60,987 nt of DNA. Origin: Nostoc sp. T09 (GTDB taxonomy: Bacteria > Cyanobacteriota > Cyanobacteriia > Cyanobacteriales > Nostocaceae). Under the pieces are notes generated by a model. The model had not been told where the DNA came from, made no database searches, and saw nothing but the letters and a program-made list of their open reading frames with translations. Of this stretch, positions 26,897 to 45,073 are shown one piece after another. Every line of letters begins with the position of its first letter. The first letter of the stretch is position 1. Location: NCBI RefSeq assembly GCF_002154695.1, contig NZ_MTAV01000070.1:1-60987 (forward strand), read 5' to 3'. A program made the translations under genes and the position numbers.

Positions 26897-29386
26897 TCAG
26901 TCTTCTGGTTCAAAGTAATGCCGATCAAAAATATGAAGGTAACTGTGTTTACTGGCTGTCTGTTGAGACTGTCGAATCGGAATCTGAATTACAAACTCGG
27001 CTCCCTGACCAGGTATAGAATGGCACTGCAATGAGCCACCATGCTTCTCGGTCACAATCTGGTAGCTGATCGACATTCCCAATCCTGTCCCTTTGCCAAC
27101 TGGCTTAGTGGTAAAGAATGGGTCACACAATCGCTTTTGAACAGCTTCTGGGATACCAGGGCCGTTATCCACAAACCGAATCTGTACGTGGTCTGAACCT
27201 ACCATCTGTGTATAAATCTGAATTTCACTGGTCTTTTGCCCAATCTCCTGAAACCTGCATAATTGGTGTGGTTCTTCGAGGGCATCGATGGCGTTGCTAA
27301 TGATGTTCATAAACACCTGGTTGAGTTGTCCGGCGTAGCACTCAACTAACGGCAGGTTGCCATAGTTCTTAACCACTTCAATTGCCGGATGATCTTGCTT
27401 GGCTTTCAGCCGATTCTGTAAGATCATCAGCGTACTATCAATGCCCTCATGGATATTCACCGATTTCATCTCGGCTTCGTCCATACGGGAGAAGTTGCGT
27501 AAAGAGAGCACAATCTTTTTAATTCGGTCGGCACCAACTTCCATTGAACAGAGCAACTTGGGCAAATCTTCTACTAGGAATTCTAGGTCGATCTCCTCGC
27601 TTTTGACCTGGATTTCTGACGCTGGGCTGGGATAATGCTGTTGATATAATTGCAGTAGTTCAAGGAGATCGTGAATATACTGATTTGCAGGATTTAAGTT
27701 GGCATAAATAAAGTTCACTGGGTTATTGATTTCATGAGCTACCCCAGCCACTAATTGCCCTAAACTAGACATTTTCTCATTCTGCACTAGCTGAGTCTGC
27801 GTTCGCTTCAGTTCAAGTAAGGTAGTTTCCAGATCAGTTGCTTTCTGCCGCAACTGGGCTTCTGATTCTTGCAAAGCGGCTTCGGCTTGTTTACGCGCAC
27901 TGATATCGCGAGCAATTTTAGAAGCACCGATGATTTTGCCTGTGGAATCTTTCACTGGAGAAATAGTCAGCGAAATATCAATCAACGTCCCATCCTTGCG
28001 TTGACGCACCGTCTCAAAGTGATCGACTCGTTCTCCGCGCCTGAGTTTCTCCAGAATTTGGGGTTCCTCATTGATGTGGTCCGCAGGAACAAGCATTGTC
28101 ATAGGTTGACCGATCGCTTCTTGTGCGGTGTAGCCAAATAGTCTTTCTGCCCCAAAATTCCAGCTGACAATTACTCCATTCAAGGTTTTGCTGATAATGG
28201 CATCCTCTGAAGACTCGACAATTGCTGCTAAGCGAAAAAAAGCTTCTTCGGCTTGTTTACGCGCACCAATTTCGCGAGCAATTGTGGAAGCACCGATGAT
28301 TTTGCCACTGGCATCTTTAACTGGAGAAATGGTCAACGAAATCTCAATCAGCTTTCCATCCTTGTGCTGACGTAATGTCTCAAAGTGATCAACTCGTTCT
28401 CCACGCTTGAGTTTCTCAATAATTTGGGCTTCCTCATTGATGCGATCGCCAGGAATGAGGATTGTTACAGGTTGACCAATCGCTTCTTGTGCTGTGTAGC
28501 CAAACAGCCTTTCTGCCCCAAAATTCCAGCTGGCAATTACGCTATCCAAGGTTTTGCTCATAATGGCATCTTCTGAAGATTCGACAATTGCCGCTAGGCG
28601 AAACATAGCTTCTTGGGCTTGTTTGTGTTCTGTAATGTCTCTATGAACTCCAATCCATTCGCGAATACTGCCATCAGCATTCAATATCGGCATAGACTTA
28701 ACAATCATGTAACGATACTCACCGTCATAGCGGCGCAAACGATGTTCCACCTTGTACAAGGTTTGGCTTGCAACTGCTTGTGCCCAAACTTCTGCTGTGT
28801 GCGATTGATCGTCTGGGTGAACCGCATTCAGCCAGCCCCAGCCCTTTAGTTCCTCGAATGTTTGTCCGGTATAGGCACTCCAACCAGGCTGCTTGCTGAC
28901 AAACTCACCTTCAGCTTTGGTATCCCAAATAATTTCAGATGTGGCTGTCATCAGGAAGCGGTAGCGTTCTTCACTATGGCGTAATGCGAGTTCTGCCTGT
29001 TTGCGATCTGTGACATCTTCAGCCACAAGCATCACTCCGTTCACAACCCCCGCACTGCTGCACCACGGGCGAAGCGTCCACTGACGCCAGCCTTTTTTAC
29101 CGTCAGCCTGCTGAAATCGCTCCTCTACACACAATTCAACCGCTGCCACCAAACAGTACTGGTATGCTTCTGCCAATGGTTCATAAAACTGCCGAAATAA
29201 CTCTTTGTGCGATCGCCCAATAATCTCTTGTCCCTCCAGCCCTAACTCACTCAACCATCGTTGGCTGGTCAGCAAATACTTCATTTCGCGGTCTACAATT
29301 GCAGCCGCAATTGGTAGGTTTTCCAAAAACGCACAGTAGAGATCATCTCGTTGGAAATCATTATTTATAAGAGAATTTTGGCTCAT
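26897..29386 (-). CDS. Sensor histidine kinase with four PAS domains
   Basis: Four PAS domains fill residues about 12-510, followed by a coiled linker and a kinase core: H-box [20 protein letters not shown] (phospho-accepting His), N-box NIISNAIDALEE, G1 FVDNGPGIP and G2 GKGTGLGMSISYQIV. There is no transmembrane segment and no receiver, so it is a cytoplasmic sensor that must signal to a separate regulator. PAS 3 and 4 are near-identical (122-residue period). The kinase core carries the long inserted cassette also seen in the REC-kinase and HAMP-kinase genes of this window. Confidence 0.93.
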   Translation of the reverse strand: MSQNSLINNDFQRDDLYCAFLENLPIAAAIVDREMKYLLTSQRWLSELGLEGQEIIGRSHKELFRQFYEPLAEAYQYCLVAAVELCVEERFQQADGKKGWRQWTLRPWCSSAGVVNGVMLVAEDVTDRKQAELALRHSEERYRFLMTATSEIIWDTKAEGEFVSKQPGWSAYTGQTFEELKGWGWLNAVHPDDQSHTAEVWAQAVASQTLYKVEHRLRRYDGEYRYMIVKSMPILNADGSIREWIGVHRDITEHKQAQEAMFRLAAIVESSEDAIMSKTLDSVIASWNFGAERLFGYTAQEAIGQPVTILIPGDRINEEAQIIEKLKRGERVDHFETLRQHKDGKLIEISLTISPVKDASGKIIGASTIAREIGARKQAEEAFFRLAAIVESSEDAIISKTLNGVIVSWNFGAERLFGYTAQEAIGQPMTMLVPADHINEEPQILEKLRRGERVDHFETVRQRKDGTLIDISLTISPVKDSTGKIIGASKIARDISARKQAEAALQESEAQLRQKATDLETTLLELKRTQTQLVQNEKMSSLGQLVAGVAHEINNPVNFIYANLNPANQYIHDLLELLQLYQQHYPSPASEIQVKSEEIDLEFLVEDLPKLLCSMEVGADRIKKIVLSLRNFSRMDEAEMKSVNIHEGIDSTLMILQNRLKAKQDHPAIEVVKNYGNLPLVECYAGQLNQVFMNIISNAIDALEEPHQLCRFQEIGQKTSEIQIYTQMVGSDHVQIRFVDNGPGIPEAVQKRLCDPFFTTKPVGKGTGLGMSISYQIVTEKHGGSLQCHSIPGQGAEFVIQIPIRQSQQTASKHSYLHIFDRHYFEPED

Positions 29387-29613: not shown

Positions 29614-30891
29614 CTAGACTGTAGTACTCACACTTGGAATTGCAATCTTAAACTCGGTTCCTATACCCGGCTGAGAATTTACTTCCATTGTGCCTTTGTG
29701 TTTTTCCACAACAATTTGATGAGCTATCGACAAGCCAAGCCCAGTACCCTTGCCAACGGGTTTCGTGGTAAACAAAGGCTCAAACAGCCGTTGTTTGAGT
29801 CGCTCAGGAATACCAATCCCATTGTCAGCAATCCGAATTACAACCCAATGTTGAGAATTTATTTCTGTTGTAATTTGAATTTGAGGAATTTTATTGCTCA
29901 TTTTGCCTTTGTTTATGGCTTCATCAAGGGCATCAATTGCGTTAGCAATAATGTTGATAAATACTTGATTCATCTGGCCTAAATAGCAGTTTACCTCTGG
30001 CAATGTTCCATATTTCTTAATTACTTCAATACCAGGAAGATCGCCATTACCCTTGAGGCGGTGTTGTAAAATCATTAATGTACTATCTAGCCCTTGGTGC
30101 AAATCCGCAGGTACTTTGGTATCACTATCCGAACGGCAAAAGGTACGAAGTGAAGTAGAAACTTGACGAATTCGTTCAGTTCCCAGTTTGAATGAGTCCA
30201 AAATTTTGACCATATCTTGAAGAATGAATTCTAGATCCCAGTCTTCCAGAGCAGTGGTAATTTTAGCTGTCGGGTTTGGATATTCTTGTTGATACAGTTG
30301 GAGAATTTCGGTTACTCCGCCAATATATTCCTCCAAAGGTGGGATATTGCTGGTGATAAAGTTGATGGGGTTGTTCATTTCATGGCCAATACCAGCGATT
30401 AACTCTCCCAGTGTTGATAATTTCTCTTGTTGCACCAGTTTGACTTGGGCTTGTTGCAAAGCAGCAGTGCGATCGCGCACTTGTTGTTCTAAAAATTCAT
30501 TAAGTTGTTTAAGCCGTAAATGCACGCGGACTCTGGCAATAACTTCCTCCTGAGCAAATGGTTTGGGTATGTAGTCTACCGCACCCAGAGAAAATCCCTT
30601 AGTTTTACTATCCATATCCGCTAAAGCAGTGGTAAAAATAATCGGAATCTTCTGGGTAACAGGATTGGCTTTGAGGCGACGACAGGTTTCAAAGCCGTTA
30701 AGACCTGGCATTTGTACATCCAGCAAAATTAAATCTGGTTGATTGCGTTCGGCTTGGGCGATCGCACTTTCGCCGTCGACTGCAACACGGAAACGCAACC
30801 CCTCACTAGCCAGCGCTTCGGACAGGACAGACAAATTGGTGGGATTATCATCAACAATCAAAATAAATCCGTTATTTGAAATCTTGGTCAT
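29614..30891 (-). CDS. Receiver-histidine kinase hybrid
   Basis: An N-terminal receiver domain (residues about 10-130; ILIVDDNPTNLSVL, phospho-acceptor Asp in LILLDVQMPG, Lys in VDYIPKPF) is joined by a coiled coil to a kinase core with H-box LGELIAGIGHEMNNPINFI and ATP-binding boxes IIANAIDALDE, IADNGIGIPE and [15 protein letters not shown]. This REC-first layout is typical of cyanobacterial kinases that take a phosphate from a hybrid kinase upstream. It begins 30 bp after the ethylene-receptor-type hybrid kinase ends, so the two are almost surely one operon. Confidence 0.93.
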   Translation of the reverse strand: MTKISNNGFILIVDDNPTNLSVLSEALASEGLRFRVAVDGESAIAQAERNQPDLILLDVQMPGLNGFETCRRLKANPVTQKIPIIFTTALADMDSKTKGFSLGAVDYIPKPFAQEEVIARVRVHLRLKQLNEFLEQQVRDRTAALQQAQVKLVQQEKLSTLGELIAGIGHEMNNPINFITSNIPPLEEYIGGVTEILQLYQQEYPNPTAKITTALEDWDLEFILQDMVKILDSFKLGTERIRQVSTSLRTFCRSDSDTKVPADLHQGLDSTLMILQHRLKGNGDLPGIEVIKKYGTLPEVNCYLGQMNQVFINIIANAIDALDEAINKGKMSNKIPQIQITTEINSQHWVVIRIADNGIGIPERLKQRLFEPLFTTKPVGKGTGLGLSIAHQIVVEKHKGTMEVNSQPGIGTEFKIAIPSVSTTV

Positions 30892-30921: not shown

Positions 30922-32808
30922 TTAATTAATGTGTTGTTGAATAAAAGTTTCTAAACGTTTGAGTTGGAAGTTGCTAGCTAACTGAAAGAGTTGTCTGCTA
31001 AAAAGGCTAAATTGCTCATCGGATGCAGAAAGTTGTTGAGCCATTTCTGAAATTTTTTGAATATCGCCGTCTTGTACTAGTTCCAGTAATTTTTGTAGAA
31101 CCTCCTTGGGAGGAGGAACCATATCAACTGGAGGATTTAAATTATTTGTATTGGTTTTGTTGATTGTGTTTGTCTTGTTCTCATATAACCATTCCAGTCG
31201 CAAAAATTGTCGCAGTAGTTCCAGCAGCGTTTCAGCTTCTATCGGCTTGGGGAGAAACGCATCTGCACCAACATCAATACTCTTATATTGGTCAATTGCA
31301 AACACACTGGCTGACGAAGCGATGACAGCCATCTCTTTAAATTGACCAGACTGACGCAAACTTTTAATGAACTCAAATCCATCCATCACAGGCATAACCA
31401 AGTCAGTAATAATCAAGTCTGGTTTATGGGCTTTTACCTGTTCCCATCCTTCTTGACCCTGACTAGCTTCTACAACAGTAAACCCCACTGGCTCCAGTAA
31501 ATTAACGATTACCGAGCGATTTTCCCATTTGTCATCCACAATCAAAATGGTGCGCCTTTGCCCTTGATAACCAATAATGCTTCCCTTCTCAACTACTCTG
31601 GAAACCCTTGCCCAGTCTTTAGATTCTGGCAAGTCCACTTCAAACCAAAAAGTGCTACCTGTGCCAAACTCACTTTCTACTTGAATTTGACTACCCATCA
31701 ACGAAATAATTTTTTGGCTGATTGCTAATCCTAAACCTGTACCTTCAGTTTGTCGTTTCTGATTTCCTACTTGCTCAAAAGGTAAAAAGATTTTCTCAGC
31801 TTGCTCAGGGGTGATACCCGTGCCAGTATCTATTACTTCAAAGCGAATTTTATATGTAATTTGTTTATTGCCATTTGATGCTTGATTAATGACTTTAACC
31901 TTGAAGGTAACGCTGCCTTGATTAGTAAATTTGATTGCATTCCCAAGCAAGTTGATCAGTACTTGCCGCAAGCGTTTTTCATCAGCACGAATCCCTGTTG
32001 GTAAATCGGGGTCAAGTTGCAGATGAAATTCGATTACCTTTTGTTCGGCACGGATGCGACAAATTTCACTTACACTGTCTAGAAATGCAGGCAAGTAAAA
32101 ATCAATCGGATTTAATTCCAACTTTCGGGCTTCAATTTTGGAGAGATCCAAGACATCATTAATCAAAGTTAATAAATGAGAACCACATTGGTAAATAATG
32201 CCAATTCCTTTGCTACCTTTTTCACTTAAAGCTTCTGTGCGTTGAAGGATTTGTGTATAGCCAAGGATGCCGTTGAGAGGTGTGCGTAGCTCATGACTCA
32301 TATTGGCGAGAAATTCACTCTTGGCTTGGCTAGAGTTCTTCGCCACTTCCTCAGCAAGGCGTAGCTCTTTCTCAATGCGTTTACGCTCGACAATTTCACT
32401 TGTGAGTACTCGGTTGATAGCTTCTAATTGGGCAGGGCTGGGTAGTGTCAAAGCTTGAGGCATGAGATAAATTAATGCAAATGCCGTATATATCGAAATA
32501 ATGGCAGTGAAAGCTTTCAAACCGCCTGCTATCCAGTAATTGGGATGCCAAAGCGTCCAAATTTCCATCAAGTGCCCAGTACCACAAGCAATGATAAAAG
32601 CACCAAATAACAGAAATACCCCATTGAAAGGAACGTCTTTACGCTTGGAAATAAAGTAGATCAGTAGAAAAGGAATAGAATAATAGGCCAGGGCAATCGT
32701 GGCATCAGAAATAATGTGGAGCCACACCAGCCCCGTTTTCCAGAGATAACAATGTCCGTGCGGGATAAAACTGTTTGAGTAAGAAGGATAATTAAAAAAA
32801 GCTAACAT
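30922..32808 (-). CDS. Ethylene-receptor-type hybrid histidine kinase
   Basis: From the Met at 32808 the first ~130 residues hold three membrane helices like the ethylene-binding domain of plant ETR1 and Synechocystis SynEtr1. They include ISDATIALAYYSIPFLLIYF, LFGAFIIACGTGHLMEIWTL and AFTAIISIYTAFALIYLMP. Asp35, Cys75 and His79 have the same spacing (40 and 4) as ETR1 Asp25, Cys65 and His69, where Cys and His hold the copper cofactor. A HisKA domain (MSHELRTPLNGILGYTQIL), an ATPase domain ([12 protein letters not shown]), a receiver (Asp in LIITDLVMPVMDG) and a C-terminal helical module complete it. An in-frame TTG at 32862 is an alternative start. Confidence 0.9.
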   Translation of the reverse strand: MLAFFNYPSYSNSFIPHGHCYLWKTGLVWLHIISDATIALAYYSIPFLLIYFISKRKDVPFNGVFLLFGAFIIACGTGHLMEIWTLWHPNYWIAGGLKAFTAIISIYTAFALIYLMPQALTLPSPAQLEAINRVLTSEIVERKRIEKELRLAEEVAKNSSQAKSEFLANMSHELRTPLNGILGYTQILQRTEALSEKGSKGIGIIYQCGSHLLTLINDVLDLSKIEARKLELNPIDFYLPAFLDSVSEICRIRAEQKVIEFHLQLDPDLPTGIRADEKRLRQVLINLLGNAIKFTNQGSVTFKVKVINQASNGNKQITYKIRFEVIDTGTGITPEQAEKIFLPFEQVGNQKRQTEGTGLGLAISQKIISLMGSQIQVESEFGTGSTFWFEVDLPESKDWARVSRVVEKGSIIGYQGQRRTILIVDDKWENRSVIVNLLEPVGFTVVEASQGQEGWEQVKAHKPDLIITDLVMPVMDGFEFIKSLRQSGQFKEMAVIASSASVFAIDQYKSIDVGADAFLPKPIEAETLLELLRQFLRLEWLYENKTNTINKTNTNNLNPPVDMVPPPKEVLQKLLELVQDGDIQKISEMAQQLSASDEQFSLFSRQLFQLASNFQLKRLETFIQQHIN

Positions 32809-33268
32809 AATGGTAGAGGTAACTAGATTTGTGATAATTATCTGTAACCTCAGTATTCCCAAAAAGGTTTAGACTTTTAAGTTTCGATTACTTATTTTTA
32901 TTTATTACTTGTGCCAAATTATACAAAGATTGGTGATTAATTAATATTTATCTATTGATTAAAATTAATGCATCCTCAAATCTTTCATCATTTCTATTTG
33001 AAGATTCAAGTTAGACTTGTGCATTCAATAGATTAGTCATGGTGCGATCTATGTGTTCTGCCTTGGTTGCCAAAATTTGATTCATAGGTTCAAATCCTTG
33101 GCGATCGCCTATATATCATCGATGGACAGGACAAACGGTAAGCCCTTGGCGTTTGTCATATTTTTGACATAACCTTTGAGCGATCGCTAGTGACATTGCC
33201 TACAGGAAATTGTGGTATACAAGGTGCTATACTCATCAAGTTTTAGTTAGCTATAGTTAGCATATCTA
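32809..33268. other. Intergenic region between divergent genes
   Basis: Contains an 8-bp hairpin, gacaaacg (33130-33137) with cgtttgtc (33150-33157), and two HIP1 sites. Promoters for the ethylene-receptor-type operon and the lipase-like gene must lie here. Confidence 0.45.
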
Positions 33269-36590: not shown

Positions 36591-38609
36591 TTAAAAGGAA
36601 ATTGCTCTGTTCAATTGACTGGTTTTATTTCCATTTTCTGGGTTGGTTGCTCCTTGGTAAAGAACCTCGGATACAGTTTGCAATAATTCCTGAGTTGTGT
36701 AAGGTTTAGAGATAAATTTGTTGACAGTCGTATTTTTGGCAATTTTATTGCAGGCTACCAGACCGCTAACAGCAACAATCTTCACCAGCGGATTCATTGT
36801 TTGCAATGTGCGAATGGTAGTTGCACCATCCATCAATGGCATCATCATATCTACCAAAACCAGACTAATTTCATTATGGTAGCGGGCATAAAGTGCGATC
36901 GCTTCAATACCATTGCTAGCAGTCATAACCTTGTAGTTATAACTTTCTAAGGAAATTTTAGTAGTTTCGAGAATTTGAGCTTCGTCATCTATTACTAAAA
37001 TTAATTCTCCATTGCCATGTGGCAGTTCGAGATTTTCGGCTTGAGATGTTGCCATAGTCTCTACTGCTGGTAAGAATAATTTAAATTCAGTTCCTTTACC
37101 GATTTGGCTATGCACATTAATAAAACCACCGTGACTTTTGATGATTCCTCTCACGGTTGAAAGACCTAAACCTGTACCTTTACCAACCTCTTTAGTAGTA
37201 AAAAATGGCTCAAATATTCTATCTAAGATTTCTGGTGGCATCCCCATTCCTGTATCCGCAACAGTAATGACAATATAGGGGCCAACATGAGCATCCAGAT
37301 TCATCCGGGCATATTGTTCATCAACTAACAAATTTTTGGCAGAAATAGTCAGCTTACCACCGTTGGGCATGGCATCACGAGCATTGACTGTGAGGTTCAT
37401 CAGTACTTGATGTAAGTGTGTGGCATCTCCAATCACAGCCCAAAGTTCGGAGTTAATATTTATCGAAAATTCAATTGATTTGGGAAATGTGCCATGAACA
37501 ATCTGCTCAATTTCTGAGAATAGGCGGTCAATTAGCACAATTGAACGTTTACCTTCAACCCCGCGTGCAAACTGTAACACTTGCTTAACTAAAGCAGCTC
37601 CGCGTTTAGAGTTAGTTTCAATTGTTCGATACATTTGCTGACTCCATTCCTCAGAATGAGAGCGTTTTAGCTGTAGCAGTTGTGATGCTGACAAAATGGG
37701 TGTGAGTATATTGTTGAGGTCATGAGCAATGCCGCCAGCAAGTGTACCCAAACTCTCTAAGCGTTGCGTGCGAAGAAATTGGCTTTCCAGTTGTTTTTTT
37801 TCTGTAATGTCGGTGTTAACTGTCAAAATCGATTTAGGTTGTCCATCTTGATCCCGCATTAAAGTCCAACGACTGGCAACAATAATTGTTTGATTTTGTT
37901 TAGTAACTTGCTGTAATTCACCTTGCCAGCAGCCATATTCCAATAAACTTGTGCGGATAGTTTGTAGTTGAGGTAAGATATCTGCTGAATAGAGAAGCTG
38001 ATTGATATTTTTGCCAATTACTTCTGTTGCTTGCCATCCGTATAAATTTTCAGCCCCTTGGTTCCAAAAACTGATTTGATTATCCCAATCGTTAACAATA
38101 ATTGCATCTGTAGCGATATCTAGCAAAGCAGCTTGTTCATGAATTTTTTGTTCTGCTTGCTGGCGCTCAGAAATTTCCCTCTCCAAACGTTGATTTTGCT
38201 CTTGGAGTGTCTTAGTTAAGTTACGCAGCTGGAGATGAAGTTCAATCCGGGCTAAAACTTCTTCGTGCTGTAGCGGTTTAGTAACGTAATCCACTGCTCC
38301 CAAACTCAAGCCTTTGACCTTATCCACTGTTTCTGTGAGTGCGGTCATGAAAATGATGGGAATATCTTTTGTGCGTGCATTCGCTTTTAAACGGCGACAG
38401 GTTTCAAAACCGTCTATTTCTGGCATGAGTACGTCCAACAGCATCATATCAGGTGGGGCATACTCAGCTCTGGCGATCGCACTTTCGCCATCTTCCGCAA
38501 CTAAAACAGTAAATCCTGTATCGGCTAAAAAATCAAACAACATTTCTAAATTTGTCGGGGTGTCATCAACAATTAAGATGACACCTTTATGACTTAAATT
38601 AATATTCAT
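36591..38609 (-). CDS. Hybrid histidine kinase, REC-PAS-kinase-REC
   Basis: Domain order is receiver 1 (residues about 10-130, [14 protein letters not shown], Asp in [12 protein letters not shown]), coiled coil, PAS (about 155-275, [20 protein letters not shown]), H-box [20 protein letters not shown], ATPase boxes ([29 protein letters not shown]) and receiver 2 near the C-terminus ([13 protein letters not shown], Asp in [11 protein letters not shown]). The two receivers flanking a HWE/NtrB-like kinase core suggest a phosphorelay. No membrane segment is present. It ends 16 bp from the stop codon of the Coq4-like gene, tail to tail. It lies 145 bp downstream of the giant kinase gene on the same strand. 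Confidence 0.93.
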
Positions 38610-38754
38610 AAAACCTCATTTTTAAATCAGGCAGAGGTCAGCAACTATGTTAATCTACATCCCTATTACCGTTGTGCGGAAGTTAAAACTCAAAAGTCAA
38701 ATGGCAATTACAAATGACAAGCCCCACCAATGAGATTTAACTACGCCGAACTAC

Positions 38755-41700
38755 TTACTTATTTTCTGCAAACTGTGAATATTGTTTAATAAAATCTACG
38801 ATTTGTCTTCCTTTAAACTCTTTAGCAAGTTTGCGCAAATGAGTAGTAAACGGTAACAATTGTTCATCCATCTCCTCTAATTGTGTTGCTTTTTGGGCAA
38901 TACTCCTGAGGTCTCCTTTCATTGCTAAATCTAGCAAAATTGCAATTTCCTCTGCTGGTGGAGGAATCAACTGTAAATTTTGAATTTTTGATTTTAGATT
39001 AACATCTTTTTGTTCTTTTGGATCGTTGTCTGTCTCTTCATAAATCCATTCCAAGCCTAAGTGAATTCTTAATTTTTCTAAAAGTTCTGTTAACCGGAAT
39101 GGTTTAGGCAGAAAGTCATTACAGCCTAATTCTAGACTCTGCTTTTGCTCAAAATCAAAAACGCTAGCTGATATAGCAATTACTACTACTTCTTTGAAGT
39201 TTGGTAACATCCTCAAGCGATGGGTGGCTTCAAAACCATCCATCACAGTCATTACCAAGTCCATAAAAATTAAATCTGGCTTAAATACTGCTGCTTTGTC
39301 AAGACAGTCTAAGCCATCTGTTGCTTCTAAAACTTCAAAACCTAATGGCTGTAGTATATTGACTAAAACAGAACGATTTGACCATTTATCATCTACTACT
39401 AAAATCTTCTTTTGATCACCAGCAAAACCAATAATGTTACGTTCAACAACTTTCTTAAGATTCATTGGATAAGCAACCTCAGCTAAATCCAAATCTAGCC
39501 AGAAAACGCTGCCTTTACCTAAAGTACTTTTGACCTTGAGTTCACCGCCCATCATCTCAACTAATTGACGGCTAATTGCCAATCCTAAACCTGTACCTTC
39601 TGTCTTGCGGCTATCTTCTCCTACCTGCTTAAAGGGCAAAAATATTTCTTCTAATTGCTCCTCGGCTATACCTATACCTGTATCTTCTACTTGAAACCGT
39701 ATTTTTCCTTCCTGATAGCCTACCTGAAATTTTACACTACCTTTTTCGGTAAATTTGACAGCATTACTCAGTAAATTAATTAAAACTTGCCGTAACCGTT
39801 TTACATCTGCTCGCACAACTTTAGGTACAGGTGATATCTGATTATAAACTAAAGCAATTCCTTTTTGTTCGCTCCGAATCTGGCAGATTTGCACAATACT
39901 TTCAAGAAATTCTGGAAAAGAAAATTCTGTAGGATAAAGTTCTAATTTTCCTGCTTCAATTTTAGAAAGATCTAAAATATCGTTAATCAGTGTTAGTAAA
40001 TGTTCGCCACATTGATGAATGATGTTTATACCATTCTTTTGTTCAGCAGTGAAAGTGTTATTTTTATTCAAAATTTGAGCATACCCCAAAATCCCATTGA
40101 GGGGTGTGCGCAGTTCATGGCTCATGCTAGCGAGGAATTGGCTTTTGGCGCGGTTGGCGGTTTCCGCTGCTTCTTCAGCACGTTGGCGATCCCTTCGGGC
40201 AGCTTCGCTAACGCGGATTTCCTGTTGCAGTTGTAAATTTTTAGCTTGTAATTCCAGAGTTCGCTCTTTTACCCTAAATTCTAGCGTGCGATTATATTCT
40301 TCTAAATCCTGATAAAGACGCGCATTTTCAATTGAAATTGCTGCTTGGGATGATAAAATTTGTAATATTTCCAAGCGCTGTGGTGTAAATGCCCCAGTGG
40401 TTAAATTATTTTCTAAGTAAAGAATGCCAATTAGTTTTCCTTGATTCACAATTGGCGTACATAAAATAGATTTTGGTTTTTGGGTGATGATATAGTTATC
40501 CAGGTTAAATACAGCTTCACTGGTAGCATCATTCAAAACCACGTTTTTCTGTGTTCTCTGCACGTAGTTGATGATGGATATTGGTAGTTGCTGACTACTT
40601 TCTACAGGTATTGATTGCTGGACATTTATTTCATCTTTATCTATACCTCCTGAAGCTGCTATCTGTAACTTTCCTGCTGTTTCTAAAATTAAAAATCCCT
40701 TTTCGGCACCCGCATTTTCAATTAAAATTTGCATCAAATTAGTTAGCAACTTATCTAGAAAAATTTCCCCAGAAAGTGCTTGCGAAGCTTTCATAACTGC
40801 GGCTAAATCTAAACCCCCAGAACTACCTATAGTTGTAGAGCTAATTGTCTGATTTACCTCTAGACTTTTGGTTTTTCGCTTCAGACCTTGGGAGAAAATA
40901 TGCGGATATTTTGCTTCAAAGTCTTTAATTTTAACTGTGGCTCCCCATTGAGCATAAGCATAGTAAGATTGAGTTAAATAATCTCTAGCCAAGTTTTCCC
41001 TACCACGCTCAAAATAAAACTCAGCTGCTAATTCTGAGGCTACTGCTTCTTCATGGAGAAATCCCTGTTCTTTGGCGTTAGAGATGGCGCGATCGTACAG
41101 ATCCATTGCTACTAAATGTTGTCCCAAAACTCGCGCTTTCTCTGCTTCCACCAAATCGTATTTGTGCTGAAAGTTCATCGGAGCATGAACAGCCCATTCT
41201 TGCATTTTCTGTTGATTTTGGGTAACTTTTTCGAGAATTTGTGGTTGTTCTTCCTTTAAAACATGAGGATATTGAGCCAACAGAGCGAGAGAATAATATA
41301 ACCTATAAGTACCATTCAAACTCAGACCGTTTACGCCCCCTAGATGTTTTTCTGCTAAAGTTGTGTAGTGAAGCGATCGCGGGTAATCTTTAGCAAAATA
41401 ATAGAGGATCGCCCTGGAAAAGTAAGCCGCAAACAACAACATATTGTTATCGGCTTTGATTAACTTTGGTAACAGGGCATTAGCATCGAGAATTTCCCCA
41501 TGACAATGGTATTCTTCCTCTGGCGCATCCAGTAATTTTAATACTGCAATTCGCCAACTCTTGAGGTAAGAACTATGAAAATCGAGTTTGAGTTTGATTA
41601 AAGAATCAAGATGCTGCGTTTGCTTTTGTGCAACTACTTCCAGCGGTTGACCAATAAAAAACATCTGGTCACAAGCATAGAAAAAATCATAGCCAGACCA

Positions 41701-44700
41701 TTCCAAATCTCCAAATTCTAACCCCGTTTGCACTCCGTCCAACAAAGGAGCAATACATTCTCTGGCGTGTTCTTTCCAATGGATAATATGACCGTGAACT
41801 ATATTATGAACAGCGGCTTTTAATTGTTTAGCATTAAATTGCTCTAACAGCTTTAAACCGAGTTTGCCATAGCGATATCCTGTTTCAATATCTCCTAAAA
41901 TAGCGCAGAGAATTAAGCCATAAAGAGCATATCCAAATGCAGATAGTGATGTATTACCATGTTCAACACTTTGGTTGACAAGTGTAAAAGCAATGCTGGG
42001 AAATACCTCTGGAGTCGTCGCATAAGCAGGAGCCGCACAGCTGACTAAAATTCGCATGATTGCTAAATGCTCTGCATCAGTCATTTCTGGTCGGTTCGCC
42101 AACTCTTCCACATCCATCTTTTCAGGCGGAACAGTTGCTAGAGTTACACCCATCATATCCAGAACTTTTAGCCCAGTTTCTAACGCGGCTTTCATTTGAT
42201 TTCTCTGGATATAAAACAGCATTTGTAGTTCATAAATTTTGACTTTATCAAGCAGACTTTTCGCCTGTTTGAGAACTACTTCTGCCAGACTTGTGGCTCG
42301 TTCGGCATTGAGATTTAGATACTCGGCTCCTGTTGCCTCTACATACAAATCTAATGTCAAATTATATTGATGATGCCAGCTATCATCAGGCAGAAGTTCC
42401 AGTCCCTTCGATAAATACCGAACGGCAGTTTCATAAGCTGTTGCGGCTTTGGCTTTCTTGCCGGCAATTAAATTAAGTTGTGCGAGTTTATCTTTTTCAG
42501 ATTTCTCGGTAATTAATTCAGCACCAATATTTAACTGGTTGACAATTTCAAAGATATTTTCTTCGATTTCTGCTTCCGAAGTATGCTTAAGTAACAGTTC
42601 ACCAATTTTCAGGTGAGTTTGTTTTTTATCCTCTGGGAGAATCAGAGAATAAGCGGCTTGCTGCACTCGGTCATGCAGGAATTTGTAGGTAATTGTTGAC
42701 TGGGCAGTTTCCGGCACAGTCGTTATGTTGTCTGACTCAAATACCAGAGGAATTTTGTAAGACTGGTTTAAGGGAAGAACTAATCCTGCCTGTAAAGACT
42801 CCCATAAATCTTTAGCGGTTTCTGATAAAGTTTTTTCATTAACAATACTCAGAATATCTAAAGTAAACTTGTCACCAATACAAGCAGCTAACTTTAAAAC
42901 ATTTTGTGTAGTCGGCAACAGCTTTTGAATCTGGCTGACCATTAATTCAATCACATTATCAGTGATATCAATATTTTGTAGACGATGGATGTTCCACTGC
43001 CAACAACCTTCACTGAAATTAAATGATAATAAGTTCTCTTGATAGAGAGATTTAAGTAGCTGAGTTAAGAAAAAAGGATTACCTTGAGTTTTGTTGTAAA
43101 CTAAATCAGCTAATGATTCTGAATTTTCTGAGTGAGTGTGGAGAGTATCACTGACTAATTGGTTGACATGAGAAATCCGCAAAGTCTGAAGTACAATATT
43201 GTTGACAACTGCACCAGATTTTTGAATTTCTTCTAAAGTCAATATCAAAGGATGAGTTACATTGACTTCGTTATCTCGATACGCACCAATCATTAATACA
43301 TATTGACTATCTGGGTCAGTGGCAAGCAACTGAATCAACTTTAATGAAGCTGAATCTGCCCATTGTAAGTCATCCAAGAACACTACCAACGGATGTTCGG
43401 GTTTACAAAATACATGAATAAATTGTTGAAACAGTCGATTAAATCGGTTTTGCGATTCAGCAGGGCCTAATTGCGGAACTTCTGGTTGAGTCCCAATAAT
43501 TCTTTCTAGTTCAGGAATAACATCAATAATAACTTGAGCATTGTTACCCAGAGCAGCCAAAATCTTTGCTTGCCAAATTGCTATTTGCTTGCTACTTTCT
43601 GTTAATAACTGCCTGATTAATTCTTGAAAAGCTTGAATTAAAGAAGCATAAGGGATATTACGTTTAAATTGGTCAAACTTACCTGAAATAAAATAGCCTC
43701 TTTGCCGGACTATGGGTTTATGAACTTCATTGACTAAGCAGGATTTTCCTATACCAGAGTACCCACTTACTAACATCATCTCAGTTGCCCCAAGACTAAC
43801 TCGCTCAAAGGCATTCATGAGAATGGCAACTTCTTTCTCGCGGCCATAAAGTTTTTGGGGAATGAGAAATTGGCTATATAAATCAAGCTGTCCGATGCAG
43901 AAATCCGCAATTTTTTCAGTAGCTTGTAGTTGTTGTAAGCATTCTTCTAAGTCTGCTTTGAGTCCCAAAGCATTTTGATATCTATCTTCAGCAGTTTTGG
44001 CTAATAATTTCATCACAATATCAGAAACTACCGCAGGAATTTTTGAGTTAATTTCTTTAGGAGGTACTGGTGTTTTAGCAATGTGGCAATGAACTAATTC
44101 TAAAGAGTCATGGGCTTGAAAAGGTAGCTGCCCCGTTAACATTTCATAGAAAGTGGCACCTAAAGAGTAAAAATCAGTACGATAATCAATTGAACGATTC
44201 ATCCTGCCTGTTTGTTCTGGGGACATATAGGCGAGGGTGCCTTCTAACAAATTAGGATCGCTGGGATTCTGACTTTCTTTGGATAAACATGATGAAATAC
44301 TAAAGTCAATAATTTTAACTTGGTCTGTTTGCGAATTAATTAAAATATTTTGCGGCTTAATATCTTTATGAATAATATTATTTTGATGTAATTGTGAAAG
44401 AATATTAGCTAATTGAATAGCAATGTTCAAAAAAATGCTTAAGTCAAAATTTTGGGTAGTAATAAAATTTTTTAGAGGTTCTCCTGCAAAATCTGTCAGA
44501 ATTAGTGCTAAACCATTTTGATAATTTTCCAAAGCCAGGGGTTTAACAATTCCTTCTATTTCTAAAGGTTGGAGTATTTGATATTCATGTCTTAATTGAG
44601 TCAGCTGTTGTATGGTGGGATACTCAGTTTTCAGAGTTTTAATAATTACCGATGTTTGCTCTGGCTCTCGTAAGGCACGATAAACACAGGTAGTAGTGCC

Positions 44701-44748
44701 GTCATACAGAACTTCGATGAGATTATAACCAGCAATGGTAATACTCAT
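38755..44748 (-). CDS. Giant Ser/Thr kinase-AAA-GAF-histidine kinase-receiver hybrid
   Basis: About 1997 residues from the Met at 44748 (MSITIAGYNLIEVLYDG). The N-terminal Ser/Thr kinase domain has HKDIKPQNILI, DFS in place of DFG, and GTLAYMSPEQTGRMNR. An AAA_16-type ATPase follows (Walker A GYSGIGKS, Walker B VVFLDDLQWADS), then a long helical TPR-like region, a GAF domain (GAEKGFLILETAGKLQ) and a coiled coil. Last come a HisKA/ATPase kinase ([31 protein letters not shown]) and a receiver (Asp in LIFMDLVM), plus a C-terminal helical module. Proteins of this layout are the HstK-type kinases of filamentous cyanobacteria. An ORF start at 44823 adds 25 residues of no protein character. Confidence 0.94.
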   Translation of the reverse strand: MSITIAGYNLIEVLYDGTTTCVYRALREPEQTSVIIKTLKTEYPTIQQLTQLRHEYQILQPLEIEGIVKPLALENYQNGLALILTDFAGEPLKNFITTQNFDLSIFLNIAIQLANILSQLHQNNIIHKDIKPQNILINSQTDQVKIIDFSISSCLSKESQNPSDPNLLEGTLAYMSPEQTGRMNRSIDYRTDFYSLGATFYEMLTGQLPFQAHDSLELVHCHIAKTPVPPKEINSKIPAVVSDIVMKLLAKTAEDRYQNALGLKADLEECLQQLQATEKIADFCIGQLDLYSQFLIPQKLYGREKEVAILMNAFERVSLGATEMMLVSGYSGIGKSCLVNEVHKPIVRQRGYFISGKFDQFKRNIPYASLIQAFQELIRQLLTESSKQIAIWQAKILAALGNNAQVIIDVIPELERIIGTQPEVPQLGPAESQNRFNRLFQQFIHVFCKPEHPLVVFLDDLQWADSASLKLIQLLATDPDSQYVLMIGAYRDNEVNVTHPLILTLEEIQKSGAVVNNIVLQTLRISHVNQLVSDTLHTHSENSESLADLVYNKTQGNPFFLTQLLKSLYQENLLSFNFSEGCWQWNIHRLQNIDITDNVIELMVSQIQKLLPTTQNVLKLAACIGDKFTLDILSIVNEKTLSETAKDLWESLQAGLVLPLNQSYKIPLVFESDNITTVPETAQSTITYKFLHDRVQQAAYSLILPEDKKQTHLKIGELLLKHTSEAEIEENIFEIVNQLNIGAELITEKSEKDKLAQLNLIAGKKAKAATAYETAVRYLSKGLELLPDDSWHHQYNLTLDLYVEATGAEYLNLNAERATSLAEVVLKQAKSLLDKVKIYELQMLFYIQRNQMKAALETGLKVLDMMGVTLATVPPEKMDVEELANRPEMTDAEHLAIMRILVSCAAPAYATTPEVFPSIAFTLVNQSVEHGNTSLSAFGYALYGLILCAILGDIETGYRYGKLGLKLLEQFNAKQLKAAVHNIVHGHIIHWKEHARECIAPLLDGVQTGLEFGDLEWSGYDFFYACDQMFFIGQPLEVVAQKQTQHLDSLIKLKLDFHSSYLKSWRIAVLKLLDAPEEEYHCHGEILDANALLPKLIKADNNMLLFAAYFSRAILYYFAKDYPRSLHYTTLAEKHLGGVNGLSLNGTYRLYYSLALLAQYPHVLKEEQPQILEKVTQNQQKMQEWAVHAPMNFQHKYDLVEAEKARVLGQHLVAMDLYDRAISNAKEQGFLHEEAVASELAAEFYFERGRENLARDYLTQSYYAYAQWGATVKIKDFEAKYPHIFSQGLKRKTKSLEVNQTISSTTIGSSGGLDLAAVMKASQALSGEIFLDKLLTNLMQILIENAGAEKGFLILETAGKLQIAASGGIDKDEINVQQSIPVESSQQLPISIINYVQRTQKNVVLNDATSEAVFNLDNYIITQKPKSILCTPIVNQGKLIGILYLENNLTTGAFTPQRLEILQILSSQAAISIENARLYQDLEEYNRTLEFRVKERTLELQAKNLQLQQEIRVSEAARRDRQRAEEAAETANRAKSQFLASMSHELRTPLNGILGYAQILNKNNTFTAEQKNGINIIHQCGEHLLTLINDILDLSKIEAGKLELYPTEFSFPEFLESIVQICQIRSEQKGIALVYNQISPVPKVVRADVKRLRQVLINLLSNAVKFTEKGSVKFQVGYQEGKIRFQVEDTGIGIAEEQLEEIFLPFKQVGEDSRKTEGTGLGLAISRQLVEMMGGELKVKSTLGKGSVFWLDLDLAEVAYPMNLKKVVERNIIGFAGDQKKILVVDDKWSNRSVLVNILQPLGFEVLEATDGLDCLDKAAVFKPDLIFMDLVMTVMDGFEATHRLRMLPNFKEVVVIAISASVFDFEQKQSLELGCNDFLPKPFRLTELLEKLRIHLGLEWIYEETDNDPKEQKDVNLKSKIQNLQLIPPPAEEIAILLDLAMKGDLRSIAQKATQLEEMDEQLLPFTTHLRKLAKEFKGRQIVDFIKQYSQFAENK

Positions 44749-45073
44749 GTTTGATTTAAATTTTGTTAAATTTTTATTAAATTTACTCAGGTGTTCAGCT
44801 GATATCGCTATCCACAAATGCACACAGATATTTATCTGTGGTTACTTATTTATCTTAATTCGGATTTTTGCTAGCAGTCTTTTCCTGTTCGATAAGATTC
44901 ACGTGTTATCGGTCTTTGATTCTAATTTACGATGTATGAAATAGAGTCCTAAATGTTTTTAAACGGGCGCAGAAGTTTGCGCGGTGAAGCTTAGAGGTTT
45001 TATCAATTATTGTAAATAAATATGAATGCTTAATTAAGGGAAAAGCTGCTTCTTTGCTGCTATGTGTATTCTA

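Follow-up and report, generated by a model that had tools for sequence, protein, structure and literature searches.

Introduction

Histidine kinases that carry an ethylene-binding domain (EBD) are already known from cyanobacteria and other bacteria, and two of them bind ethylene. SynEtr1 (Slr1212) of Synechocystis is described as an ethylene-binding protein (PMC6682694), and a fragment of the Azospirillum brasilense receptor, AzoEtr1(1-130), binds 14C-ethylene when made in Pichia (PMC11819568). Residues D35, C75, H79 and K98 of AzoEtr1 are equated there with D25, C65, H69 and K91 of plant ETR1, in which loss of C65 or D25 abolishes ethylene binding (PMC11819568); I35, P36 and I62 of ETR1 are likewise reported as essential for binding (PMC6586836). 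The bacterial EBD kinases described in these papers place a PAS or GAF domain between the EBD and the kinase (PMC6682694; PMC11819568).

Here we analyze a hybrid kinase gene that a sequence-only reading had singled out in the window, the whole 60,987-nucleotide stretch of Nostoc sp. T09 DNA studied here. The genome it belongs to (G000) measures 8.25 Mb.

An ethylene-receptor-type domain joined directly to a hybrid histidine kinase

The receptor frame runs on the minus strand from an ATG at 32808 to a stop codon at 30922-30924, and the plus strand of this interval has many stops throughout. The interval given by the sequence-only reading is thus right, and the minus strand can be added to it (Table 1). 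An alternative in-frame TTG lies upstream at 32862 and would lengthen the protein by 18 residues. The nearest named orthologue is that of Nostoc sp. 106C, with 99% identity over residues 1-165 and 94% over the whole protein.

Table 1. Features of the receptor locus in window coordinates. Counts of EBDs refer to 90 distinct EBDs picked from the strong and the weak ends of the list of matches, which is not a random sample.
Feature	Position	Strand	Basis or remark
EBD-HK-REC hybrid histidine kinase gene	30922..32808	-	628 aa; translation, Pfam, orthologues
Ethylene-binding domain (ETR1_N), residues 27-122	32443..32730	-	Pfam; 3 predicted membrane helices
Asp35 codon (ETR1 Asp25 position)	32704..32706	-	Asp in 82/90 distinct EBDs, Asn in the other 8
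Cys75 codon (ETR1 Cys65 position, copper ligand)	32584..32586	-	89/90 distinct EBDs
His79 codon (ETR1 His69 position, copper ligand)	32572..32574	-	90/90 distinct EBDs
Lys98 codon (ETR1 Lys91 position, helix 3)	32515..32517	-	82/90 distinct EBDs
Linker 123-161, sensor to kinase	32326..32442	-	modelled helix 125-149; no PAS/GAF match
Histidine kinase core: HisKA 162-227, HATPase 276-394, phospho-acceptor H172	31627..32325	-	Pfam
C-terminal receiver (REC), residues 421-532, phospho-acceptor D469	31213..31548	-	Pfam
C-terminal tail, residues 533-628	30925..31212	-	fast evolving; 4 short helices in last ~60 residues; no conserved His
REC-HK partner gene, 425 aa	29614..30891	-	30 bp downstream; D58, T88, K110, H170 conserved
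PAS-rich HK gene, 227 bp beyond REC-HK	26897..29386	-	outside conserved pair; Pfam

The ETR1_N domain of the receptor scores 142.8 bits against a curated cut-off of 27 (E 4e-42), and the ETR1_N family search matched none of 14 control genomes. The match is therefore beyond chance, and a chance origin of the copper-ligand motif is ruled out by the same score. Pfam gave zero matches between sensor and kinase (residues 123-161), where a SynEtr1-like PAS/GAF light-sensing module is accordingly absent. With REC at 421-532, this agrees with the earlier description of a membrane part joined directly to the kinase and of a C-terminal receiver. The presence of HisKA, HATPase and a C-terminal REC, together with catalytic residues that at least 29 of 30 relatives retain (H172 in 29, D469 in all 30), identifies the protein as a hybrid histidine kinase; the sole miss at H172 is most likely L047, whose second piece begins past this residue.

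AlphaFold2 modelled residues 1-150 (mean pLDDT 89.1) with helices at 25-55, 62-87 and 91-120 and a fourth at 125-149 that leads into the kinase, so that the three membrane helices proposed from the letters are also predicted by the model. Neither a sequence search nor a fold search with the EBD model (threshold E 0.001) found a solved relative of the EBD. The receiver is followed by 96 further residues, which the earlier reading did not mention. A role of this tail as an HPt domain is ruled out, since no conserved phospho-accepting His follows REC and the model shows four short helices over the last ~60 residues. With phmmer, REC plus tail matched PDB 12aw, but a follow-up profile showed weak alignment of the tail and a score that came from the receiver, and the match was set aside; a fold search of the REC-tail model returned receivers.

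Conservation of the sensor residues

Asp35, Cys75 and His79 are present in the translation at the ETR1 spacing of 40 and 4 residues, as had been claimed. The receptor was compared with a region of A. brasilense Sp7 found by an EBD search of plasmid records. Across the alignment with the 525-aa Sp7 ORF, which we take as AzoEtr1 by its published length and not by locus tag, 71 of 144 residues are identical, and C20, D35, Y42, I45, P46, I72, C75, H79 and K98 carry the same numbers in both proteins. The receptor thus also has other positions on which binding by ETR1 depends, namely I45, P46, I72 and Y42, the last being the equivalent of ETR1 Y32.

Relatives were collected by a profile search of genome contigs with orthologue alignment, and the best 80 of 470 were kept. 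Among these 80, the EBD is at least 77% identical to that of the receptor in 57, of which 53 are orthologous in the kinase part too and four combine the same EBD with another kinase. C20, D35, C75, H79, K98, I45, P46, I72 and Y42 are found in 53/53 of the orthologues among the best 80 of 470 relatives, which rules out a loss of the motif in close relatives, a check that the earlier reading had proposed. The Pfam profile, the residue match with the putative AzoEtr1 and this conservation support the assignment of the domain as a putative ethylene-receptor-type sensor, in keeping with that reading.

Domain dN/dS was calculated for 49 orthologues, excluding L163, L170, L174 and L177, which have no full-length frame. 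The median values, all pairwise against the one sequence of the window and hence not independent, are 0.056 for the EBD, 0.114 for HK, 0.144 for REC and 0.41 for the tail. Among the large domains, the EBD has the lowest median in these 49 orthologues, and its median identity is 92%.

The receptor is broken or short in three of the 53 orthologues among the best 80 of 470 relatives (L170, L174 and L177) and the gene is interrupted in G006, suggesting that some strains manage without the receptor, unless these are assembly faults. L047 belongs beside the first three as a locus with an interrupted or short receptor, by decay or assembly fault; the partner gene described below is retained in three of these four loci, the exception being L174, where no close REC-HK was found within the 10.5 kb stretch.

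Asn replaces Asp at the position of Asp35 in the EBDs of L080, L116, L118, L091, L105, L089, L101 and L090. Within this group, the position of Lys98 is Arg in L105 and L089, Ser in L101 and Gly in L090. These Asn-type EBDs are perhaps altered in sensing.

EBD genes elsewhere and the genes behind them

Of 386 genomes sampled from the phylum, 90 have ETR1_N genes. The window's genome has six, including the receptor; four of them have PAS between EBD and kinase, and L050 (433 aa) has its EBD joined directly to the kinase. Several more EBD genes share the direct join, as judged by the distance from sensor to H-box. The contrast with SynEtr1 drawn in the sequence-only reading is thus true, but it overstated how odd the arrangement is.

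Four loci, L188 (4947-7094), L198, L199 and L200, carry an EBD 77-83% identical to that of the window on a PAS-rich kinase with no receiver. These EBDs are the product of recent domain shuffling; the EBD tree, with support of 58/0, leaves undecided the direction of the move relative to the PAS-HK proteins L188 and L198.

We examined what follows the 71 other EBD genes that have at least 600 bp behind them (two were dropped for having less; near-copies are included). A REC-first gene comes next in 29 of the 71, and in 14 of the 26 that bear a receiver of their own. Twenty of the 29 REC-first neighbours were scanned and comprise seven REC-adenylate/guanylate cyclases, seven proteins with REC and a histidine kinase, three REC-GGDEF proteins (two of them cut at the edge) and three REC-AraC proteins. 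The remaining nine are 124-171 aa long and were detected by the custom REC profile only. Six of the cyclase neighbours belong to family f2 and the seventh is at L218.

At L112, L117, L095, L120, L121, L124 and L218, the gene of a REC-led class III adenylate/guanylate cyclase begins 0-163 bp behind that of an EBD hybrid kinase. In four of these loci (L112, L117, L095 and L124) the cyclase gene is preceded by tandem EBD kinases, the first of ~515 aa and the second of 1023-1232 aa, with 50-109 bp between them. A possible route from ethylene to cAMP is suggested by such loci.

A REC-HK gene paired with the receptor

The sequence-only reading had also noted a REC-first kinase 30 bp on. Such a gene does start at 30891, on the same strand and 30 bp past the receptor stop, and Pfam finds REC at residues 10-122 followed by HATPase and no output domain. 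Of 30 relatives, 29 retain the His at its phospho-acceptor position (H170). A scan for promoters and terminators gave no more sites than shuffled sequences (7 vs 14.1 and 6 vs 6.1, respectively).

In 50/53 orthologues among the best 80 of 470 relatives, a same-strand REC-HK is found no more than 600 bp downstream. The other three of these 53 include L197, where the REC-HK is directly upstream at 186 bp, and L163, which ends at the contig end, and within the list the partner of L149 is split in two frames and that of L166 is cut by a contig end. Likewise, REC-HK stands behind the receptor in all of 11 orthologue neighbourhoods, at -4 to 259 bp, a list that shares genomes with the 53 orthologues so that the two counts are not additive. 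Of the 53 loci among the best 80 of 470 relatives, only L145 also has the window genes on the other side (33269 and 34607), indicating that the receptor/REC-HK pair is kept where its surroundings change. The PAS-rich HK gene beyond the pair was rejected as a third member of the system, being found behind it only in G005 (70%, partial) among the 11 neighbourhoods.

A two-gene chassis with different sensors

Pairs of an HK-REC and a following REC-HK recur in cyanobacteria. The 34 HK-REC relatives above 400 bits consist of 11 EBD orthologues (L047 broken) and 23 proteins with no EBD, and a REC-HK follows in 18 of these 23; of the five with no pair, L055 is at a contig end. The sensors of nine scanned non-EBD relatives, by Pfam, are MASE1 (L125), Cache (L127, L131, L132 and L136), CHASE2 (L054) and PAS (L134 and L141), with HAMP only in L138. 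The 12 EBD rows cluster together, with support of 100/99, in a tree built from 30 paired kinases. From the varied sensors on paired non-EBD relatives and the single EBD clade we conclude that an existing two-gene unit had its sensor exchanged, by either gain or loss of the EBD.

The partner tree adds a qualification to this picture. The REC-HK of L131, from a Cache cassette in G009, is placed within the EBD group or next to it; the set of 13 is supported at 100/100, and the EBD group stands alone in 29% of bootstrap trees. By this placement, sensor and partner have not always moved together.

The same arrangement recurs within the window's genome, where REC-HK matches occur at 44 places. Twelve of the 44, the window's included, were read and are full-length REC-HK genes; for nine of these 12 an HK-REC paralogue precedes the gene at a distance of -4 to 30 bp, and three have no preceding HK-REC. 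The HK-REC paralogues of this genome reach 64% identity in the core.

The window also has a second pair on its minus strand (36591-44823), in which a Ser/Thr kinase-AAA-GAF-HK-REC gene (38755-44823) is followed after 145 bp by a REC-PAS-HK-REC gene (36591-38609). The core of the 38755-44823 protein is about half identical to that of the EBD kinase, and a paralogue of it elsewhere, L233, has a REC-HK 2 bp behind.

Proposed mechanism and alternative explanations

We consider it likely that the receptor is an ethylene-receptor-type hybrid histidine kinase with a Cu(I) sensor, signalling to its own receiver and/or to REC-HK, and that it belongs to a family of sensor-swappable cassettes. The domains, residues, conservation, pairing and single clade are read from sequence; from these we infer the use of Cu(I), ethylene as the signal, phosphotransfer, the direction and sign of the response and its final output. 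The three N-terminal helices would form a dimer in which Cys75 and His79 of each subunit bind one Cu(I) close to Asp35 and Lys98. On binding at the copper, ethylene would shift the helices, and the shift, carried through helix 125-149 to the DHp, would alter autophosphorylation of His172. The phosphoryl group may then pass from His172 to Asp469 of the protein's own receiver and/or to Asp58 of REC-HK, whose own kinase (His170) would relay the signal onward. The cassettes would share the form sensor-HK-REC plus REC-HK with interchangeable sensors, the EBD filling the sensor slot in this lineage.

The sensor could be an EBD by descent and yet respond at Cu(I) to redox or CO, to copper status or to a small olefin other than ethylene. 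Such a role would need only the copper ligands, and the family is widespread in cyanobacteria (the 90 of 386 genomes above); against this, I45, P46, I72 and Y42, positions required for ethylene in ETR1, are kept in 53/53 orthologues among the best 80 of 470 relatives. The EBDs of SynEtr1 and AzoEtr1 also bind ethylene (PMC6682694; PMC11819568), and we regard sensing of something other than ethylene as improbable. Still harder to accept, and in our view very improbable, is that the EBD merely anchors and dimerizes the protein in this lineage: a broken receptor copy in some strains would fit such a role, whereas the metal-site residues are all kept in the 53 orthologues among the best 80 of 470 relatives and the EBD has a median dN/dS of 0.056 (lowest of the large domains) and 92% median identity in 49 orthologues.

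The identity of the partner calls for similar caution. REC-HK may be no phosphotransfer partner at all, its adjacency reflecting a shared history of the kinase core, with the hybrid's receiver serving a distant protein. The intact D469, the lack of an output domain in REC-HK and the apparent exchange of partner at L131 would all fit this explanation, which we nonetheless think rather unlikely given the pairing in 50/53 orthologues while flanking genes 33269 and 34607 recur only at L145 (both among the best 80 of 470 relatives), and given the REC-first gene after 14 of 26 other receiver-bearing EBD genes. The pairing in 50 of the 53, together with the recurring cyanobacterial pair, makes it more likely that the putative receptor passes its signal to REC-HK.

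A broader proposal, on which we place somewhat less than even confidence, is that heterocystous cyanobacteria possess a set of two-gene, exchangeable-sensor phosphorelay cassettes, into one of which an EBD was plugged once, providing a private ethylene input to a kinase network. Cyanobacterial EBD kinases would more generally be wired to REC-led effectors encoded by the next gene, among them class III adenylate cyclases, which account for 7 of the 29 REC-first neighbours, with cAMP as a second messenger for ethylene.

If the receptor binds ethylene, two small proteins of 628 and 425 aa would couple ethylene to a phosphorelay without an intervening light-sensing domain, so that, unlike with SynEtr1, the effect of ethylene could be studied separately from that of light. 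Chassis that are nearly identical but carry other sensors offer ready controls and material for chimaeras. Some orthologues come from strains described as lichen partners (Peltigera membranacea cyanobiont), and whether Nostoc hears the ethylene of its partner thus becomes testable.

Comparison with known systems

A mostly abstract-level literature search found no description of an EBD-HK-REC protein with a REC-HK partner, and prior notice is possible; a title-level search found nothing relevant on the HK-REC plus REC-HK chassis.

AzoEtr1/AzoRRetr1 of A. brasilense resembles our locus in having a response-regulator gene directly downstream of the receptor gene (PMC11819568). Unlike the Nostoc receptor, AzoEtr1 has PAS between sensor and kinase and no reported receiver, and its partner is a lone receiver of 135 aa where ours is a REC-HK. 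The regulator of SynEtr1 is of the AraC type. SynEtr1 resembles our receptor as an EBD histidine kinase whose pathway includes a response regulator gene (PMC6682694, PMC11819568), but it has PAS/GAF light-sensing domains and senses light too. GeiEtr1 and GeiEtr2 of Geitlerinema PCC 7105 are EBD kinases with the seven binding residues, and GeiEtr2 also shares the C-terminal receiver; they differ from the receptor in having GAF, or PAS-PAC-GAF, between EBD and kinase (PMC6682694). Plant ETR1 shares the three-helix EBD family and the ligand spacing, but contains a GAF domain and signals through CTR1/EIN2 (PMC7700396, PMC6586836).

The pairs of sensor-HK-REC and REC-HK genes in Nostocales that carry MASE1, Cache, CHASE2 or PAS match the receptor in kinase core, receiver, tail and downstream REC-HK, and differ from it in that another sensor replaces the EBD. 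What is new here is this chassis, an EBD placed on a two-gene unit that relatives use with other sensors.
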